Virus record (IMG/VR): IMGVR_UViG_3300033146_000590
Coordinates: 1-37,008 of that record
Source of the DNA: a virus
Reading direction: 5' to 3' (one strand)
Length of the DNA stretch: 37,008 nt
Shown here: positions 25,086 through 37,008 of the stretch, piece by piece
How the letters are laid out: each line of letters starts with the position of its first letter
Position numbering within the stretch: position 1 is the stretch's first letter
Notes under the pieces: model-generated
Told to the model about the DNA's origin: nothing
The model's database searches: none
Seen by the model: only the letters and a program-made list of their open reading frames with translations
Made by a program: the position numbers and the translations under genes

Positions 25086-27527
25086 CTAAATATTTTTTCT
25101 ACGGGGGCGAGTTTGTTTAAACCCTAACCTACTTCTAGCTCTTTTTTCACGTTCTGCTAAATTAAGAGATCTAGGAGCAGGTCCGTCATGGGAAAAATTT
25201 GGATTATTCCATAATGATAACTGAGTCTCACGCATATGGCTAGCTGGAATACTCTTATTTACAGATATTAAACTGGTTTCAACAATATCATGTGTTCGAT
25301 CAGTAGTAGGTTTAGAAGTAGGTTTTGTTTTGTTACGATAAGGATTATCTATTACTAGATCACCTTCATGAATTATTGGATCTGTTCTCTCACCTATATT
25401 GCCAGAGAATGCCATTTTGACTTCAATTTTGGGTTTACCTAATGGACTTACTTCAAGTGTAAATGCCATTATACTAAGCATAAGTGCATCTAAAGTATGA
25501 TCACCTATTGTGTCTTCTTCAGCTGCGAATATAGGAACACCTGATACACTTCTACGTTTAACTACATAACCTTGTAATTGTCTTTGTAAGACATCATCAA
25601 ACTTTGAGAAATGGATATCACTTGCTTCAAATCTACGAACTGTATTTTCTACTAGGAATGCTTTTCCTGGTTTTTTTGTTATTTGATGCGTAAATAAATC
25701 ATGCGTTTCAACAGACCCGCCGAAAAAATATTTCTTTACAATGTTGCGCAATTTGGAGTCTGGATGTGATGGTCCTTTAGCTGGATCTATCATGGAATCA
25801 TAACCAAACTTACGCAGAACTTCATCTTGTGTTCCGCCATATCCAGCATCAATGTAAATAGCCATTGGGTTCCAAACACGATTTAGATTAGCTATTTTTT
25901 GACAGGCAGCTAATTGTGTCCAATTTTCTCGACTCACAATGTGGCGATCGACTACAATAAATTTTTTAACAGTTGGATTAAATCCTAATACAACAATAGT
26001 GGTTCCAATTGCTGTGTCATTCCAGTCCACCCCAAATGAATATGTCCAGCCTGGATTGGGGGCCATATCTTGGTAACGATAATCCTGCATTGCTGTTTGA
26101 ACATATGAATTTTGGAATACGCCTTCTTCTTGTTCGCCAAATTCTGCCATGACTTCATGCTTGTATGCGATACTAGTCATATTTTCTTGGAAGAACGCTT
26201 CTTGATCTTCTCCCCACATTGGGTTTACTTGTGATGGGAAATGAAATTCTTTCCAAACTTTTGAACTACAAGTATTGAAGAACTTTTCTCGCTTACCAGA
26301 TGGAGTAGAACTCATCCAAATAGATGCTTGAGGATAGTTAGTGATAATAGACCAGGCTGCATCCATGTCTTTAGATGCCAAGTAATCAGCTTCGTCAAAT
26401 ACAAGCATATTTGCATGTTGTCCACGAACTGCTTCGGCATTTCCGCCTGATTTGGTACCTGCCGTAAAACCAGCTACTTTAGAATTGTTATATAATTCTA
26501 TCGTATAGATAGGCGCTTTTACGCTTCTAAATAGTGCATTTTGTGTATTTGGGCTACTTCTAATGAGTTGCATTATTCGTTTAAAAATAAGATCAATTTG
26601 AGATTGATATGGTGTAATTATGACTACATCAAATCCTTCATTAACTGGAACACCTGGCTTGGTGAACATATGGTACAAAATTGAGATAACTAATGATTCG
26701 GTTTTTCCACTATTATGGGTATAGATACCATTAGCAATAAAGTTATGTGTATTTTCTATTTCTATATCATATGTAGTTTCTGTGCCAACTGGTGTAATTG
26801 AACTTACATAATCCCATAATATATTCTTGTTTTCTGAAGTAGCTATTTTGGTTCCTAAGACTAAACCAGTATCTATTGACAACCATTCTGCCTTAATACT
26901 GTTTGTACCAATAGTATTAGAAACATAGAACCGATGATCAGATGTACATTTTATTTCATGACCAAATCTAGTCTTAATAAGGAATACTTCTTTTTGTCCT
27001 GCATTCCAATGTCGAGTAACTCTGGAAGAAACTTGTTGTGACGTCTTCTCGTTAAGAGATATCACTATATCATCTGGTTTAATATCTGATATTGGTTTAT
27101 GCTGACCATTACTAAGAGTAATCTTAGTATCACCAGTCAAACATTGTCGTCCAATTCTAAATACTTTTCTACGAGATGAACATCTCAGCATTGTTGCTTG
27201 GTATGGTCTGTGATATCTAGAATGCCCTAGAATAGGAGTATCAGGATTCTCAGAAACCCATGTTTCATATTCTTCTGGATTTCTGCGTTTCCAGATTTCT
27301 CCGTCAGGATCTAGACAATGCCAATCAAGAGTCTCAGCTGCCCATTTGACGGGATCAAGTATATACGAAGCTGTGTTATCAGTTTCGTCATTAAATAAAT
27401 TAAGATTAGAGTAATCAGTTATGCCCTTGCATTTTATTTTAAATTGCTGACCTGCAACTAAGTTATGTTTTTTCTTGTAATTACGGACACAGGTAAGACA
27501 GGCATGATCACATTTATTTAAATCCAT
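25086..27527 (-). CDS. terL: Terminase large subunit (ATPase-nuclease) interrupted by a mini-intein
   Basis: The 813-residue precursor drops to about 669 residues after splicing. The Walker A motif is GRQ-SGKT, split between Gln128 and Ser273 by the intein. Walker B is LVFDEAD (Asp378, Glu379) and the coupling motif SSTP is at 406-409. The nuclease (RNase H-like) domain starts near 497 with VDWND (Asp501), then YIDAGYGG (Asp560) and DHTLDAL (Asp676, Asp680) as metal ligands. Together these drive DNA translocation into the prohead and cleavage. The N-terminus has Cys6, Cys10, Cys13 and Cys33 in a zinc-ribbon-like spacing, unusual for the family. AAGGTGAT lies before the ATG. There is a 97-base gap upstream, with no clear terminator or promoter. 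Confidence 0.9.
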   Translation of the reverse strand: MDLNKCDHACLTCVRNYKKKHNLVAGQQFKIKCKGITDYSNLNLFNDETDNTASYILDPVKWAAETLDWHCLDPDGEIWKRRNPEEYETWVSENPDTPILGHSRYHRPYQATMLRCSSRRKVFRIGRQCLTGDTKITLSNGQHKPISDIKPDDIVISLNEKTSQQVSSRVTRHWNAGQKEVFLIKTRFGHEIKCTSDHRFYVSNTIGTNSIKAEWLSIDTGLVLGTKIATSENKNILWDYVSSITPVGTETTYDIEIENTHNFIANGIYTHNSGKTESLVISILYHMFTKPGVPVNEGFDVVIITPYQSQIDLIFKRIMQLIRSSPNTQNALFRSVKAPIYTIELYNNSKVAGFTAGTKSGGNAEAVRGQHANMLVFDEADYLASKDMDAAWSIITNYPQASIWMSSTPSGKREKFFNTCSSKVWKEFHFPSQVNPMWGEDQEAFFQENMTSIAYKHEVMAEFGEQEEGVFQNSYVQTAMQDYRYQDMAPNPGWTYSFGVDWNDTAIGTTIVVLGFNPTVKKFIVVDRHIVSRENWTQLAACQKIANLNRVWNPMAIYIDAGYGGTQDEVLRKFGYDSMIDPAKGPSHPDSKLRNIVKKYFFGGSVETHDLFTHQITKKPGKAFLVENTVRRFEASDIHFSKFDDVLQRQLQGYVVKRRSVSGVPIFAAEEDTIGDHTLDALMLSIMAFTLEVSPLGKPKIEVKMAFSGNIGERTDPIIHEGDLVIDNPYRNKTKPTSKPTTDRTHDIVETSLISVNKSIPASHMRETQLSLWNNPNFSHDGPAPRSLNLAEREKRARSRLGFKQTRPRRKNI
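26712..27143 (-). other. Mini-intein inside the terminase Walker A motif
   Basis: Residues 129-272 of the terminase precursor have the intein motif set. Block A is CLTGDTKI (Cys129 as nucleophile), block B is TSDHRF (about 195-200), block F is YDIEIENTHNFIANG, and block G ends IYTHN with Asn272, followed by Ser273 as +1 nucleophile. At 144 residues it is near the minimum for a self-splicing intein. I see no LAGLIDADG or HNH homing endonuclease, so it cannot spread by itself. Excision restores GRQSGKT. Confidence 0.88.
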
Positions 27528-30152: not shown

Positions 30153-33100
30153 TTATCTAGAACTAGATACTCTACTGTTACGTGATCCACGTCTCGTACT
30201 ACTTGAATTACTTGCCATTTGTTTTACTGTCTTCTTTTGAATTTCGGCTTGTTCCTTTTTTCTGAGCATTGTATATGTCTTACGTTCTGCATAAGGAAGA
30301 GTTGGTATTAACGTATGAGTTCTATCTCCAGCAGCCATTTCACGAGAAAGCCGCCTACGTGTATCAGTACGTGTAAGTTTAGTTTTATTAAGAGCTGCAT
30401 ATTTAAGAGGTGGATTAACTTTTACCTCACTTTTTATATTTGCGAGCAAACGTTTTTCTTGATTCATAATTGAACGTTCAACGACATATTCCATTGTGGG
30501 ATTATCAAGTTCCTTGCGTAATGTTGCTAGTCCCCAGTCGATTAATTTAAATGAATTATCTTTATCACGTAAAACTTGAGACAAATGTAGATCGATATGA
30601 ACAGGAACATTTTCGGTAGCTCCATACATTTTTCTAGCTTGTTCTTTTAGAAAAAACATTGCATCACCAACTTCTCGTTTATTGGTGCGATCAATAGTTC
30701 GTCCAGCCATTTCTTGGAAGAACCCAATTTGTTGTTTATTATTAACTACACCTAGCATCTTAGGTACAGCATCTGGTAGCCAGTTATTGGCCTTCTGCTG
30801 CATTTCTGCTTCATATAACAGTGCATGCTTAGAGCCAAACTGTAAATAAGTGCGACGCATCGCGTCTTGTTGCTCCTTTAGTATACCAACAGTAAATTTG
30901 GGATCTTCATTCATTAATGGAGTCCAACCGCGACCTCCTGGCATAATCAAACTATCAGTATTGAAATTAGTATACAGTTCTGTCAGTGATGCATCATTTT
31001 TAACTGACGTTTTATAAACAGCTTGTTTGCTTGTCTTTAAATTATATGCCGATTCAACTTTACCAAATCCACCTTTTCCTAATTCCTTACCTATTGCGAA
31101 GGTGTCTCCCTCTGTAGTTTTTTGTAAAAATTCTCCTAACTTTACTTTCTTTATAAATTCTTTAGACCCTAATTCAGTTCCAGCTGACTGAATTGCATGC
31201 ATACTATTCTTGAGAACATCAGATCCAAGATATTTTCTTAAAACTTCCATGGCTTGCTTGCTAGATGCCATGTTGCGAGTAGTCTCTGTAAGGTTCTTGA
31301 AAATGTCATATCCAGAACCAAATGGAGTAATATTGTGACGAATATACTGAGCTATACCATCGTGTCGAAGACCTTCAATTGTATTGTATTCATCATTGAA
31401 GCCAGAGAATTTAGATGGACGAGGTAGCTGTTGAGCAAACCTAAGCTGCTGTTTAGTTGTTTGTGTCTTTAAATATTTACTTAACTTTGCGTACTGTTGT
31501 TGAACTAAGCCTAAATTACCACCGTATAAATTTCCTTCTGCAGTGTAAGCTGCCGCTTCTTCTATTATGTTATTTTTATTAGCAAAATATGCGTAAGAGA
31601 ATTTAGGGTTACTTGCTCTAAACTTTTTAGAATATTTTTTTAAAACTTTTTGTAGAACAATAGGGGTAAATTGATGAACTCGTTCATGAAGAATTGTTTC
31701 ACTCAGTTCTGAAGAAGATAAATTGGGATTAAAAAATGTAGCATTTTTCTGTCCCAAATCCTCTAGACTACGTAAGGAACGTCTTACATGTTGAGCTTCT
31801 TCCCAAATACCTTGTTTCCGAAGTATCTTCTTGCTTTGTGTTATTTGTCTATAGTAGGATTTAATTCTGTATGATTGGCCCCATATATTTTTTGTATCTG
31901 TAGCACCAGCTAAGAATTTGAACATCTTATCCGAGATGCCACGAATAGCCCCATTCTCGTCAATCCAAGTTGGGTTCTTACTAAGAATCTTTCTGAGAAC
32001 CCCAGATCCAAATTCAGTCATCTGTTGTCTCATTTGCCAAGCTACTCCATTATGTTGTAATCCTTCATGTTGTGCATAGGCTTGATTAGACTTTGGTATA
32101 TTCTTGTGTTTTCTAGATTGATAATAGAGTGAACGTCCGAACCGCCGAGATAAATTTATTTCATCGGTTGTAAGGTCTCTTTTTTCATCACCAAGAGATT
32201 CAAGGAATGAAGCTTCAGCACCAACTAATAAGTTACTAGCTAATTTATCTATTCTAGTAAATGTATTGTGAGTAGTAGTTCTACCTTTATATACATTAAC
32301 CAATCGTTCAGCTTGATACCTGGCATATTGCCACATGCCACGTTTGTGGCTTCTAGCTTCTTCTTCTGCAATCCTAACATGTCCACGAAGAAGAATATCT
32401 TCATCTGCAGGGCCAAAGGGTAAAGCTGATACGTCTCCTGTTCGTGTTAATTCAAGATTTAGGTTTTTGTCATCCTTGCCAGAAACAATACCTAAATAGC
32501 GACCATAAGTTTTCCTACCAGTAGATACGGTAATTCCAAGATCGCTACCCTGAGCTTCTGCCATTTGCCTCAAAGATTTAGTGGCTTGTTCGCCCCATAC
32601 CTGGTTCTGCCAGATACGTACATTATCTAGTGGGTCGTCTGAGTGTCCTGTTGTTTCAGGAGCATCAATACCAGCTAGACGAACAGCTATCTTACCGTAC
32701 CCAAATAACTCTTTAACTCTAGATACTATATCCTTACGATGAAGAAAAACTGTGTCCGCATCTTCTATTTCAATATTGAATTTAGATGCATCTACTCTTC
32801 GTATCTTGTCATCCTTAGTATTTACACCTTCAATAGTAGATACGGGAATTGAAAGAAAGTCTGATTCACGTAGTTGACCTAACTTAGCTTGAGCAGCATC
32901 TTGTTTTCTTTGTAATTCTGATTCGAATGCTTTTCTAGCTTCACGATCATTTATTACTTTCTTTCTGAAATCTAGAATAGTTGGATTTATCTTTGTCCCT
33001 AGGAGAGATGTAGGAATAGGTCTAGCTTTCTTCTGTTGTCTAGCTACTTTAGTAGTAGATGCCCAAGGTAGTGATCCTGTAGTATGTACTACTGAGCTAT

Positions 33101-35273
33101 TTACTCTACTTGGAGAAGATTTTATAGGACGACGATTGGGCGGCCTCGCAAAAAATTTTTCTGTCGCTACACTAGGATTAAATCCTTTTTCAAAAGTTAC
33201 TTGTGTCGATATTCGTTTCTTAATAGGTGATACGTAACGTCCAACCGCTGTATCAAGATCTACCCGATTAGAAACTGCATAATCTTCTTTATATCTAAGA
33301 GCAGCACCACGATGAGCAAATAATTCATTAGCAACCCATTCGGTAGCCCAATTTGGACCCATTGGAGATGAGGCTAAATTTATTACTTGGGCATAGACCG
33401 GAGCCTTATTGCGAAGCGCCTCTACATCAGGTCCATAATTAGAATATAACCATCCTGGATCTAATTGACGTTCAGCCTCGTGCATGAATAATTGTTTATC
33501 TTCAGGTCTCAGATCATTCTGCCAAATAGAATGTAGCCCTTCGTGTAAGGTCGTCTCTTTGATCCTGCTGGGCGATAGAACAGAATAGGTCCATTCACCT
33601 ATCTCACGTGCTGCACGTGCTCTAGGGACGTACTGGAGCGTGTCTGAGAGTATTGTAATGGGGTCAATGAAGCCACCCACTGACAATGTATTGTTTGAAG
33701 AGTCAAATTGGCCCATATCGCCAATGAATTTTCGTTTATAGAGTTCAACTTGAACTGAATCTCGTTTTTTAGGGTGGTCCCATCTAACCTGAGAATGATA
33801 TGCTTGAACTACTTTCTCCCTACTTATTAATTGTAGAGAGAGACGTTCATTATAAGCTCGTCTTATCTTTCTGAGAAATGACCCATATTCTTTCTCAGTA
33901 ATTACACCATCATCTGTTTGAGTAGATATACCAGCTGATACACGTGGTCCTTGGTATCCAGATCCAAAATCTGTATGCATATGGCGTAGACGACTAGCCG
34001 TACCATCGTGACCCAAACCTTCAATTGTATTGTAATCATCATCATCTCCAGAAATTAGAGATAATGGTTTAACGAGGCTTAGTATTCCAACACCAAGTGC
34101 AAGACCAAGAAGTAGTGTATTGTTCTTCACAAAAGATGCGGTTCTTTCTAATAATTTAGGTGCCTTTTTTAATCCTTTTACTACTTCTTCATCTGCCGCC
34201 TGGAATATTTTTTTCTTTGCTGAATAGACTTCAGTATCTATAATTCCTTCAGCATTTATGTGAGGAATAAACCAAGAGTTATTTACTGTATAGGTTGCCT
34301 CATTGAATTGAGTACTTTCTGAAATATATTCCAGAGGCACTCGATAGGTATCAGCTAAATTAGTTAGTCCCTTCTGAACATTTTTTGTAAATGATTTGTA
34401 ACTGTATTTAGTCTCTATCCTGGCAGCTTCTGCGAGTATGTCTTCTGTAGTATTATCATACATTACACTACTAATAAGCTTATTTTGTAGTGCTAACCTA
34501 TTCCATTCTCTTAATTCTTTTATAGAGAGAGAGTTACGATTAGAGAGAAGATTGTGAATCTCACGCAAGCCGCCGACATCGGCTTCTGACATATGTGCAT
34601 TAGCTAGAGGTTTACCAGTAAGAACTTGATAGACTAGTTCTTGTTTCCAACCAGACATACGAACTGGTCGTGGCCAAGAAGCTAACTTGTGTGCATGATC
34701 AGATAATCCAGATACAGTATTCTTCCCAGTCTCATAGAGTTTCACCCATTTGGATGCCTTAGTGTATCCTAGTGATTGTCTTTTAAGATGAGGATCAATA
34801 ATTCCATATGGGGCTTCTGTGACTACATGTGCAAGACGAAGTGCAGTCTCTTGGCCAAGATCTCTAATCTTTATTTTACTGAGTGCAGATGCTAATTCCT
34901 TATCGAGACCATACTTAGCTGCTCTTTCTTGTAATTTAGGAATATCAAAGCCATGAGGCTTATTAGGTAAATCAAATGCATTATCTACATATCCAGAAAA
35001 CCAACCTATTAGAGTGCTATCTTTATTAGCCTTCAGAACAGAGATGAATTTGTTCAACATCTCTTTTTCTGAAGTGAATTCCTTTCCTTGTTGTGCAAAG
35101 GACTTCTTCAGCGGTTGCCATACTTTTGAATCTGCCCAAACTCCAATAATGCTTCCTTCTGCTGGGTTGGCACCTAGAGTTTGAATTGGCTTATTATCTA
35201 TTCCATATGATATGGATAGAATGGAAGCATTGCTAAAGCCACCCGCCTCGATATCAAAAAATATATTTGCCAC
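30153..35273 (-). CDS. Multi-enzyme polyprotein: exonuclease, two metallopeptidase-like, SNase-like and kinase-like domains
   Basis: A 1706-residue protein with a GTG start (35271-35273) and GGAG overlapping the previous stop. Domains in order: a DEDDh exonuclease with Asp7/Glu9, Asp110 (GFDIPKL) and His227-x4-Asp232; a membrane-like helix (384-408); an HEGLH zinc-peptidase motif (577-581) with possible third ligands Glu645/Glu650; a staphylococcal-nuclease-like domain with Asp840, Arg865, Asp870, Glu873 and Arg925 (YGRYLG); a second HERVH motif (1196-1200) with Glu1238/1239; and a kinase-like domain with GKGGFGKV (about 1399-1406), Lys1421, HID at 1559-1561 (Asn of the loop replaced by Gln1566) and DWG (1579-1581). 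Three copies of a YNTIEGL-x-HDG...FGSG linker separate the modules. Residues 1650-1706 are basic and Ser-rich. It lies between a possible small terminase and glycine-zipper genes. I know of no single described protein with this set; roles of the parts in the cell are inferred. Confidence 0.78.
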   Translation of the reverse strand: MANIFFDIEAGGFSNASILSISYGIDNKPIQTLGANPAEGSIIGVWADSKVWQPLKKSFAQQGKEFTSEKEMLNKFISVLKANKDSTLIGWFSGYVDNAFDLPNKPHGFDIPKLQERAAKYGLDKELASALSKIKIRDLGQETALRLAHVVTEAPYGIIDPHLKRQSLGYTKASKWVKLYETGKNTVSGLSDHAHKLASWPRPVRMSGWKQELVYQVLTGKPLANAHMSEADVGGLREIHNLLSNRNSLSIKELREWNRLALQNKLISSVMYDNTTEDILAEAARIETKYSYKSFTKNVQKGLTNLADTYRVPLEYISESTQFNEATYTVNNSWFIPHINAEGIIDTEVYSAKKKIFQAADEEVVKGLKKAPKLLERTASFVKNNTLLLGLALGVGILSLVKPLSLISGDDDDYNTIEGLGHDGTASRLRHMHTDFGSGYQGPRVSAGISTQTDDGVITEKEYGSFLRKIRRAYNERLSLQLISREKVVQAYHSQVRWDHPKKRDSVQVELYKRKFIGDMGQFDSSNNTLSVGGFIDPITILSDTLQYVPRARAAREIGEWTYSVLSPSRIKETTLHEGLHSIWQNDLRPEDKQLFMHEAERQLDPGWLYSNYGPDVEALRNKAPVYAQVINLASSPMGPNWATEWVANELFAHRGAALRYKEDYAVSNRVDLDTAVGRYVSPIKKRISTQVTFEKGFNPSVATEKFFARPPNRRPIKSSPSRVNSSVVHTTGSLPWASTTKVARQQKKARPIPTSLLGTKINPTILDFRKKVINDREARKAFESELQRKQDAAQAKLGQLRESDFLSIPVSTIEGVNTKDDKIRRVDASKFNIEIEDADTVFLHRKDIVSRVKELFGYGKIAVRLAGIDAPETTGHSDDPLDNVRIWQNQVWGEQATKSLRQMAEAQGSDLGITVSTGRKTYGRYLGIVSGKDDKNLNLELTRTGDVSALPFGPADEDILLRGHVRIAEEEARSHKRGMWQYARYQAERLVNVYKGRTTTHNTFTRIDKLASNLLVGAEASFLESLGDEKRDLTTDEINLSRRFGRSLYYQSRKHKNIPKSNQAYAQHEGLQHNGVAWQMRQQMTEFGSGVLRKILSKNPTWIDENGAIRGISDKMFKFLAGATDTKNIWGQSYRIKSYYRQITQSKKILRKQGIWEEAQHVRRSLRSLEDLGQKNATFFNPNLSSSELSETILHERVHQFTPIVLQKVLKKYSKKFRASNPKFSYAYFANKNNIIEEAAAYTAEGNLYGGNLGLVQQQYAKLSKYLKTQTTKQQLRFAQQLPRPSKFSGFNDEYNTIEGLRHDGIAQYIRHNITPFGSGYDIFKNLTETTRNMASSKQAMEVLRKYLGSDVLKNSMHAIQSAGTELGSKEFIKKVKLGEFLQKTTEGDTFAIGKELGKGGFGKVESAYNLKTSKQAVYKTSVKNDASLTELYTNFNTDSLIMPGGRGWTPLMNEDPKFTVGILKEQQDAMRRTYLQFGSKHALLYEAEMQQKANNWLPDAVPKMLGVVNNKQQIGFFQEMAGRTIDRTNKREVGDAMFFLKEQARKMYGATENVPVHIDLHLSQVLRDKDNSFKLIDWGLATLRKELDNPTMEYVVERSIMNQEKRLLANIKSEVKVNPPLKYAALNKTKLTRTDTRRRLSREMAAGDRTHTLIPTLPYAERKTYTMLRKKEQAEIQKKTVKQMASNSSSTRRGSRNSRVSSSR

Positions 35274-35276
35274 TAG

Positions 35277-36092
35277 TTACTCCAGGGTGTCGTCAAACTC
35301 AGCATCAATTATTGATTGAGGAGATAGGACAGAAGATGTTTCGGCGGTCTCAATCTTTCTAGCGAGACTATCTAATTTAGTACGAAGTGCAGCCTGCTGA
35401 CTACTTGGGTCATCTGTGGGCTTTTGTTTGAGTGCTGCTTCTTTCTTGTATTTTTCTTGTCTGTCACCAACCATTAATTTAACTATCTTGCTCTTCCTGG
35501 CTTGAAGCTTGTCCTTCAGATCCATGAATGGAGATAGAGCCTTTTGGATTATGGGAGCACCCTGTTGGGTTACACCAATAGTTTGATCAGTTACTAATTC
35601 AGCATTATCTGGTAGAGATAGGTTCATATTAATTCTCATTAGAAGAATTTCTATTTCTGCTAGTTCTGAAATGTAACCTACTTCTGTAAAATTATTTGGA
35701 TCTACATCATACTCTTCAAAATATCTCACTATCCATTCTTTGAGTAATTGGGTTTCTATTATGCACTGTTTACCTATTGGATGTTTTCCCATTTTATATA
35801 GGGGACAGCGAGAGCGAAAAGGACAAAGATCCCCGCCGCAAAAAAGTGGAACCATTGCTGTGCTACCGGTTGAGAGTTTGCTCAAATGGTTGTGCAGAGA
35901 TAGGGCTTCCTTCTTTGTTAACTGAATATCTTCGTATTCATCTAGGTTATGGCCAAGAGAACGAAAAAAATTAGATTTAGTTATCTTTCCAGATATAGTA
36001 GTAGCAGTTCCGCCGAGAGAAATCATACCTTTCTCTTCTCTATTCTCTGCTGTAAATACAGATTCATCTTCAACTTCTTCTCGCTTACTCAC
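35277..36092 (-). CDS. Four-cysteine packaging-cluster protein, possible small terminase
   Basis: A 271-residue protein, first gene of the leftward operon. The start is GTG at 36090-36092 with AGGAG six bases upstream. Its clearest part is a cysteine cluster with Cys85, Cys90, Cys96 and Cys110 (FCGGDLCPFRSRCPLYKMG then GKQC), which could bind zinc or an iron-sulfur cluster. The N-terminus is acidic. A helical middle (ETQLLKEWIVRYFEEYDVD, ISELAEIEILLMRINMNL) and a charged C-terminal coiled-coil-like part (LDSLARKIETAETSSV) follow. Small terminase subunits are often encoded near the large subunit, are helical and end acidic, so this is my best guess. No helix-turn-helix is evident. Confidence 0.4.
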   Translation of the reverse strand: MSKREEVEDESVFTAENREEKGMISLGGTATTISGKITKSNFFRSLGHNLDEYEDIQLTKKEALSLHNHLSKLSTGSTAMVPLFCGGDLCPFRSRCPLYKMGKHPIGKQCIIETQLLKEWIVRYFEEYDVDPNNFTEVGYISELAEIEILLMRINMNLSLPDNAELVTDQTIGVTQQGAPIIQKALSPFMDLKDKLQARKSKIVKLMVGDRQEKYKKEAALKQKPTDDPSSQQAALRTKLDSLARKIETAETSSVLSPQSIIDAEFDDTLE

Positions 36093-36221: not shown

Positions 36222-36365
36222 TAAATCTCGAAAAATTCTTACTAGTGCAATTTTGAGATTATTGCTACTTCGAGACAGAGTGCCGAGGGTGGGTCAAACT
36301 GTCTATAATTTAATGTATTAGAGTAAATCTCGAAAAATTCTTACTAGTGCAATTTTGAGATTATT
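36222..36365. repeat. Two perfect 42-bp direct repeats, 102 bp apart (36222-36263 and 36324-36365)
   Basis: Both copies begin TAAATCTCGAAAAATTC and continue with TTACTAGTGC and AATTTTGAGATTATT, and are identical over all 42 bases. Each copy is itself a near-palindrome: AATCTC..AAAATT pairs with AATTTTGAGATT around a loop. Each is followed, at different distances, by CGAGGGTGGGT (36284-36294 and 36369-36379). They are upstream of the leftward operon, so operator, promoter or origin iteron roles fit; I cannot choose between them. Confidence 0.92.
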
Positions 36366-36397
36366 TTTCGAGGGTGGGTATACATTTATATATGAGT

Positions 36398-36453
36398 GAA
36401 GAGACTCCTTTTCATGCAAGACCCCGGGGTCTTCATATGAAAGTATTCTCTTC
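36398..36453. repeat. 56-bp interrupted palindrome with core AAGACCCCGGGGTCTT
   Basis: The core at 36418-36433 is a perfect 16-base palindrome. Outer arms GAAGAGA (36398-36404) and TCTCTTC (36447-36453) are complementary and symmetric about the core, and TTTTCAT / ATGAAAG adds seven pairs with one wobble. It may extrude as a cruciform, form an RNA hairpin in either direction, or be a dimeric protein site. There is no adjacent T tract of the usual terminator kind. Confidence 0.8.
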
Positions 36454-36555: not shown

Positions 36556-36677
36556 TGAATTAAACAGGTATTTGTATCTATTTAATTCTTTTCACATATC
36601 TATATCTTCTTTTTTTTATTTATATGTGTGTGTACACATGGATATTACATGGTGTAGTACTCCACTCGTGCTCACAT

Positions 36678-36716
36678 TAGAGCGTTTAAGCTCTATCAAT
36701 GCCGCATTGTGCGGCA
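36678..36716 (+). ncRNA. Two small hairpins before the GC-rich small gene
   Basis: TAGAGC-GTTTAA-GCTCTA at 36678-36695 forms six pairs. TGCCGCA-TTG-TGCGGCA at 36700-36716 forms seven perfect pairs. The second ends just before the AAAGGA ribosome site of the small gene, so it could affect its translation if this region is transcribed rightward. Confidence 0.5.
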
Positions 36717-36729
36717 GAAAGGATTCACC

Positions 36730-36864
36730 ATGGGTGAGTTCTTTGTTGAGATCATCACGGACCGAGAGCGCCTAGTGCGCTCTTCAGTCCGTGTGCCGTC
36801 GGAGGCCCGCGAGGGTCTCCGACGGTTCCTCCTGAAGGACCCGAGGATGCGCGTTCAACCGTAG
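36730..36864 (+). CDS. Small GC-rich gene, 44 residues, with an acidic tail in the -1 frame
   Basis: The ATG at 36730 is preceded by AAAGGA with a six-base gap. The product begins MGEFFVEIITDRERLVRSS and ends DPRMRVQP before TAG at 36862-36864. Third codon positions are about 70 percent GC against a low second position, the usual bias of a GC-rich coding gene and quite unlike the AT-rich late genes. In the -1 frame from the last sense codons, a run of Glu and Val codons continues to a TAG at 36906-36908 (VEEEVEVEEEVFEEA), reading like a natural acidic C-terminus. This suggests a -1 frameshift, a sequencing or mutational indel, or chance. No family is recognised. The gene overlaps two strong RNA hairpins. 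Confidence 0.5.
   Translation: MGEFFVEIITDRERLVRSSVRVPSEAREGLRRFLLKDPRMRVQP
36756..36825 (+). ncRNA. Two strong consecutive hairpins, one capped by a GCGA (GNRA) tetraloop
   Basis: Hairpin one is 36756-36793: CACGGAC pairs with GTCCGTG and, inside a small internal loop, AGAGCGC pairs with GCGCTCT around CTAGT (14 pairs). Hairpin two is 36796-36825: CCGTCGGAGGCCC pairs with GGGTCTCCGACGG (13 pairs, one G-U) around GCGA. Both lie within the small gene, so they may be mRNA structure or part of a structured RNA. Confidence 0.6.
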
Positions 36865-36916
36865 AGGAGGAGGTCGAGGTCGAGGAGGAGGTCTTCGAGG
36901 AGGCATAGTGTCTCAC

Positions 36917-36994
36917 CCCGCAGTAGATGTAGAGGGTCTGCTGCGGGTTAACTACTTCTGTGTACTACCTGTCCTCTACATGGGTAGTACACAG
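36917..36994 (+). ncRNA. Pair of hairpins with complementary loops (candidate kissing interaction)
   Basis: The first stem is CCCGCAG (36917-36923) with CTGCGGG (36941-36947), extended by three pairs, one of them a wobble. The second is CTGTGTACTACC (36958-36969) with GGTAGTACACAG (36983-36994), 12 pairs. The loops contain ATGTAGAGG (36927-36935) and CCTCTACAT (36973-36981), exact reverse complements. If transcribed in either direction, the two loops could pair. It lies after the stop codons of the small gene, near the right edge, and there is no T tract after the second hairpin. Confidence 0.65.
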
Positions 36995-37008
36995 TTACTA
37001 TATGTATG

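Follow-up and report, generated by a model that had tools for sequence, protein, structure and literature searches.

Two adjacent hairpins with complementary loops in the putative early region of a 0305phi8-36/ME3-like phage

Close to the right end of a viral contig, two strong hairpins (HP1 and HP2) lie next to each other on the same strand, and the loop of one is complementary to the loop of the other. Do these loops pair, within one RNA or between two, or is the match coincidental? The stretch analysed here (the window) is the entire IMG/VR record of 37,008 bases, probably a genome fragment; its right end lies at 37008, 14 bases from HP2. Our preferred answer, to which we give a probability of roughly 0.4, is that HP1 and HP2 belong to a structured element of an early RNA, that their loops pair, more likely in trans, and that the element acts on the fate of the mRNA.

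Structure of the hairpin pair

Folding showed two strong hairpins at 36917-36994, where the original prediction had placed them. The lengths given there, 10 and 12 pairs with loops of 11 and 13 nt, did not stand, as the hairpins had been underfolded: the minimum free energy (MFE) structure has stems of 12 and 15 bp, both perfect when G.U pairs are allowed, each closing a loop of 7 nt (Table 1). A nine-base match between the loops (ATGTAGAGG and CCTCTACAT) had also been claimed. It is present in the sequence, but not as loops, since two of its bases belong to each stem, and pairing of all nine would require the opening of two apical pairs in both. The intact loops are complementary from end to end, at seven of seven positions.

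The MFE of 36911-36996 is -43.2 kcal/mol (z = -5.8 against dinucleotide shuffles), and the duplex formed by the two loops has a calculated energy of -9.3 kcal/mol for its 7 bp. HP1 and HP2 have the features by which kissing hairpins are recognised, namely stable stems and loops that match completely, and a kiss between them is plausible. A small hairpin lies directly 5' of HP1; its loop is of the N-U-R-G-U type found in the early leaders of relatives. The 3' half of this hairpin can pair alternatively with UACUAU 3' of HP2, giving a three-way junction whose pairing probability is 0.3-0.4 in a fold of the element alone. The second copy of the HP1 loop sequence, with which a purine-rich tract begins, might compete for the HP2 loop.

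Table 1. Positions of the features discussed, in the window unless a relative (L011, L147) is named.
Feature	Position	Strand	Remarks
Large terminase with intein	25086-27527	-	
1706-aa protein	30153-35273	-	Staphylococcal-nuclease domain; sub-threshold protein-kinase-like match; adjoins the terminase genes
Small-terminase-like protein (putative)	35277-36092	-	Zinc-type Cys pattern; divergent from the RNA region; reference gene in comparing relatives
Leader element	36370-36431	+	GAGGGT box, AT-rich stretch, hairpin GAGU-GAAGAG-ACUC, then GCAAGACCCCGGGG; HP1/HP2 lie 3' of it
GC-rich, hairpin-packed stretch	36640-37008	+	~60% GC against ~36% around it; contains HP1/HP2; cut by the contig end
Candidate ORF, 44 aa	36730-36864	+	Ribosome-binding-site-like sequence before the start
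Second GUAGAGG copy	36861-36867	+	Start of the purine-rich tract
Small hairpin	36900-36914	+	GAGGC-AUAGU-GUCUC
Candidate GTG-start frame	36908 to contig end	+	Preceded by ribosome-binding-site-like GAGGAGG; runs through both hairpins
HP1	36917-36947	+	12-bp stem (2 G.U), 7-nt loop at 36929-36935; CCCGCAGUAGAU-GUAGAGG-GUCUGCUGCGGG
Linker HP1-HP2	36948-36957	+	10 nt, UUAACUACUU
HP2	36958-36994	+	15-bp stem (2 G.U), 7-nt loop at 36973-36979; CUGUGUACUACCUGU-CCUCUAC-AUGGGUAGUACACAG
Twister-P5 ribozymes (two)	L011 1231-1309, 893-968	-	Rfam covariance model; early-transcript strand
Type II hammerheads (two) and pistol (one)	L147 2909-2982, 2604-2678, 1557-1616	-	Rfam covariance model; early-transcript strand

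Chance of the loop match

The alternative that survives best is that HP1 and HP2 are two independent intercistronic hairpins, acting as mRNA stabilisers or processing sites, and that a coincidental loop match was picked by the reader from many features. Its chance was estimated with a null model in which the observed loops are randomly re-paired, giving a probability of 0.000215 per pair for at least seven complementary bases. The window contains 14 adjacent pairs whose stems have 9 bp or more, among which HP1/HP2 is the sole 7-base loop match against an expectation of 0.003. The earlier claim that adjacent loops rarely match by chance is thus borne out inside the window, and this figure argues against coincidence, as does the fact that both loops are exactly seven bases long and matched end to end. 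Over 688 kb, comprising the window and related phages, HP1/HP2 ranks best of 425 adjacent strong-hairpin pairs, and no second strong-stem pair in the set has a 7-base match, which also counts against coincidence. A looser scan (8-bp stems with a mismatch, loops of up to 12) gave further matches of 7-8 bases in the window and in relatives, mostly in long loops and on stems weaker than those of HP1/HP2.

On the other side, 0.09 such pairs are expected across all the phage DNA searched, so the look-elsewhere chance is not negligible, and since HP1/HP2 had been singled out by a reader among many features, its corrected significance is good but not overwhelming. The early spacers of relatives contain many hairpins without complementary loops, and the pair is not conserved, both of which would fit a coincidence. 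We find that the match is probably, not certainly, selected rather than coincidental, and regard two unconnected hairpins as a possibility to be taken seriously, though we doubt it.

The lack of conservation was seen in several searches. Rfam models, run on the whole window at the gathering threshold and at E values up to 5, gave meaningless weak matches only. The HP1/HP2 region has no DNA similarity to phage records, the exact HP1 pattern was found in no viral contig, and a scan of the relatives for complementary-loop hairpins found HP1/HP2 in none of them. A pattern search of IMG/VR for both loop 9-mers, 24-50 nt apart, returned 13 matches. When these were folded the 9-mers mostly paired together in an ordinary stem and none of the 13 had two complementary-loop hairpins, so this search yielded no homologue of the pair, which is known from a single sequence.

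The early region in the window and in related phages

Judged from its sequence, the contig is that of a large myophage of the 0305phi8-36/ME3 type. The genes read leftward include those for a tail sheath, an intein-bearing large terminase, a protein with a staphylococcal-nuclease (SNase) domain and a small-terminase-like protein, a label taken from position and Cys pattern. The closest named phages, at ~30-35% identity, are Bacillus KLEB27-3, Moorella MTATph1 and Acinetobacter ME3, whose annotation gives it as a relative of Bacillus phage 0305phi8-36. Relatives in IMG/VR have a terminase that is 50-61% identical, and identity in their small-terminase-like protein reaches 57-66%. Searches with exact peptides from the sheath and the 1706-aa protein retrieved no close relatives, and the GTDB genomes searched with a small-terminase alignment gave no match. 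The 1706-aa protein resembles long proteins, or pieces, in relatives. In ME3 (L002) the large terminase and the small-terminase-like gene both appear to bear inteins.

In the relatives, the opposite strand rightward of the small-terminase-like gene carries small genes with strong ribosome-binding sites, many of them preceded by hairpins. A conserved leader element, made up of a GAGGGT box, an AT-rich stretch, a hairpin and a CCCCGGG core, is found at the same place in the window and at least ten relatives (L138, L139, L141-L146, L148 and L149), with a CCCCAGG variant of the core in L157. The sequence of its hairpin varies, and by eye the pairing is kept in most (GAGT/ACTC, AAGGGA/TCCCTT, GTGGGA/TCCCAC, CCAGTA/TACTGG). 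It could be an RNA leader, a promoter element or a packaging site. L101, also found by the leader pattern, belongs to an unrelated phage of high GC content and is a chance match. In the window, a 41-bp direct repeat (AAATCTCGAAAAATTCTTACTAGTGCAATTTTGAGATTATT) occurs twice (36223-36263 and 36325-36365) in the interval that separates the leader element from the small-terminase-like gene, each copy being an imperfect hairpin.

A recurrent hairpin with an N-T-R-G-T pentaloop, usually closed by C-G (CATGGTG), lies ~30-90 bases 5' of early start codons in many early spacers (L011, L012, L021/G006, L017/G003, L019/G005, L040, L146 and L149). Among 5-nt loops in the early spacers of the relatives, ATGGT is the most frequent, and N-T-R-G-T loops are present in the window at 36649, 36772 and 36905. 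The hairpin is possibly a docking or protein-binding motif. In L011 it is also present as an insert within the twister ribozymes. Self-cleaving ribozymes of three classes were identified in L011 and L147 (Table 1); the two hammerheads of L147 flank a 69-codon ORF, and the first ends ~10 nt 5' of a ribosome-binding site. Hammerheads in phage intergenic regions have been described, as have multiple hammerheads lying close together (PMC3088659).

As the early region of the relatives carries ribozymes and pentaloop hairpins, structured RNA is to be expected in the window as well. The 369 nt of its GC-rich stretch fold into seven long hairpins, end to end. The fold energy is -178.8 kcal/mol for the plus strand and -152.3 kcal/mol for the minus strand, a difference of 26 kcal/mol, whereas the shuffle z-scores (-8.3 and -8.4, respectively) do not by themselves discriminate between the strands. 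The plus-strand fold includes 15 G.U pairs, and apical pairs of both HP1 and HP2 are lost when the minus strand is folded. Because the plus strand folds better, and with G.U pairs, the modelling favours a rightward RNA over one transcribed leftward and over a cruciform in the DNA. A sigma-70 promoter scan of the plus strand of this region gave no match. On this analysis rightward transcription and RNA structure at HP1/HP2 are likely, and the pair is probably a real structured RNA element.

HP1 and HP2 might then be part of a self-cleaving ribozyme between early genes, of a new class or decayed from a known one, with a loop contact that stabilises it as in hammerheads. The twister-P5, type II hammerhead and pistol ribozymes of L011 and L147 share the genomic place and transcript strand of the pair, and type II hammerheads commonly have loop-to-strand pseudoknots (PMC3088659); both speak for a ribozyme. 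However, HP1/HP2 have a layout of their own, no catalytic core of a known self-cleaving ribozyme (hammerhead, twister, pistol or others) was recognised in the window by Rfam covariance models at E values up to 5, and inspection by eye found neither a CUGANGA/GAAA hammerhead core nor a twister core near the pair. Furthermore, the geometry disfavours a complete 7-bp kiss in cis (see below). We consider a ribozyme unlikely.

Equally, the stretch might encode small early proteins, the hairpins being by-products of GC-rich codons. Ribosome-binding-site-like sequences precede the starts at 36730 and 36908, small ORFs are found at the corresponding place in the relatives, and a frame shift at ~36860 would append an acidic tail (VEEEVEVEEEVFEEA) to the 44-aa ORF. 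This continuation, in the -1 frame, stops near 36907 and overlaps the GTG at 36908; it may reflect a frameshift, a sequencing slip or chance. Words resembling ribosome-binding sites are, however, produced by the composition of the purine-rich tract itself, and seven long hairpins arranged end to end, with a z of about -8, are unexpected under coding constraint. Neither the relatives nor PHROGs contain a homologue of the small peptides, and the phage collection gave chance-level matches only, so coding is possible but unsupported, and in our judgement improbable. A signal in the DNA itself, of the packaging (cos-type) or protein-bound cruciform kind, would suit the small-terminase-like gene less than 1 kb away and the positional conservation of the CCCCGGG leader element, but is very improbable, as the G.U pairs of the plus strand and the weaker stems of the minus strand fit RNA and not double-stranded DNA.

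Comparison with known RNAs and a possible role

Kissing hairpins with fully complementary loops of 7 nt (or 6-7 nt) on stable stems are known from ColE1 RNAI/RNAII and TAR/TAR*. There the partners are opposite-strand or separate RNAs, whereas HP1 and HP2 are on one strand, 10 nt apart. In the purine riboswitch, two arms of ~7 bp extend from a three-way junction and touch through 7-nt loops, a likeness to the possible three-way junction and the 7-nt loops found here. This family was rejected, as the arms of HP1 and HP2 are 12 and 15 bp, their loops match fully by Watson-Crick pairing and the window has no Rfam match to it.

The original prediction had named, as one example of a kissing-loop RNA, the phi29 pRNA, which likewise has mutually complementary loops able to pair in trans and is encoded near phage packaging genes. 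We find no support for a specific likeness to it, since Rfam gave no packaging-RNA match in the window, and the sheath and large terminase are those of 0305phi8-36/ME3-like myophages and not of the phi29 motor. HP1 and HP2, moreover, are adjacent simple hairpins and unconserved even in the nearest relatives found. ROOL and GOLLD are phage-encoded structured RNAs that assemble via intermolecular kissing loops (PMC12286853), and they resemble HP1/HP2 as structured phage RNAs with kissing loops, the pairing being a predicted one here. The window has no match to the covariance models of either family, what it offers for comparison is two hairpins in ~370 nt, and a tRNA scan of the window and the scanned early regions of the relatives found none, a further difference from ROOL/GOLLD. 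That HP1/HP2 belong to a larger, new trans-assembling early RNA, or to a new ribozyme class with a 7-bp kissing helix, seems to us a long shot.

What we infer for the pair, namely that it is transcribed, that its loops pair, that they do so in trans rather than in cis and that it has a function, would fit together as follows. HP1 and HP2 would form two arms of a structured and largely non-coding part of a rightward early transcript, 3' of the leader element, where they would occupy the place filled in relatives by self-cleaving ribozymes and pentaloop hairpins. Their complementary 7-nt loops would form a loop-loop (kissing) helix. In a crude helical model, the base ends of the fully kissed helix (12 + 7 + 15 bp) are ~87-88 Å apart when collinear and ~65-100 Å apart at a 120 degree bend, and the maximum reach of the 10-nt linker is 66-77 Å. 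A full kiss in cis would thus be strained, and pairing in trans has no such limit. Judged solely from this simple geometry, dimerisation via HP1/HP2, or a partial contact in cis, appears likelier than a full kiss in cis. In a dimer, HP1 of one transcript would pair with HP2 of another, twice. The most likely job of such an element would be in the fate of early mRNA, through stability of the 5' end or spacer, through processing, or by setting how accessible a ribosome-binding site farther downstream is.

If the loops do pair, HP1/HP2 would add to the phage RNAs that have a strong loop-loop contact, and would be amenable to a clean two-mutation test. The firmer lesson concerns the myophages of the 0305phi8-36/ME3 kind, whose terminase-adjacent early region carries several classes of ribozymes as well as pentaloop hairpins between small genes. 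Such early regions lend themselves to asking why structured RNA is placed between the early messages of phages.
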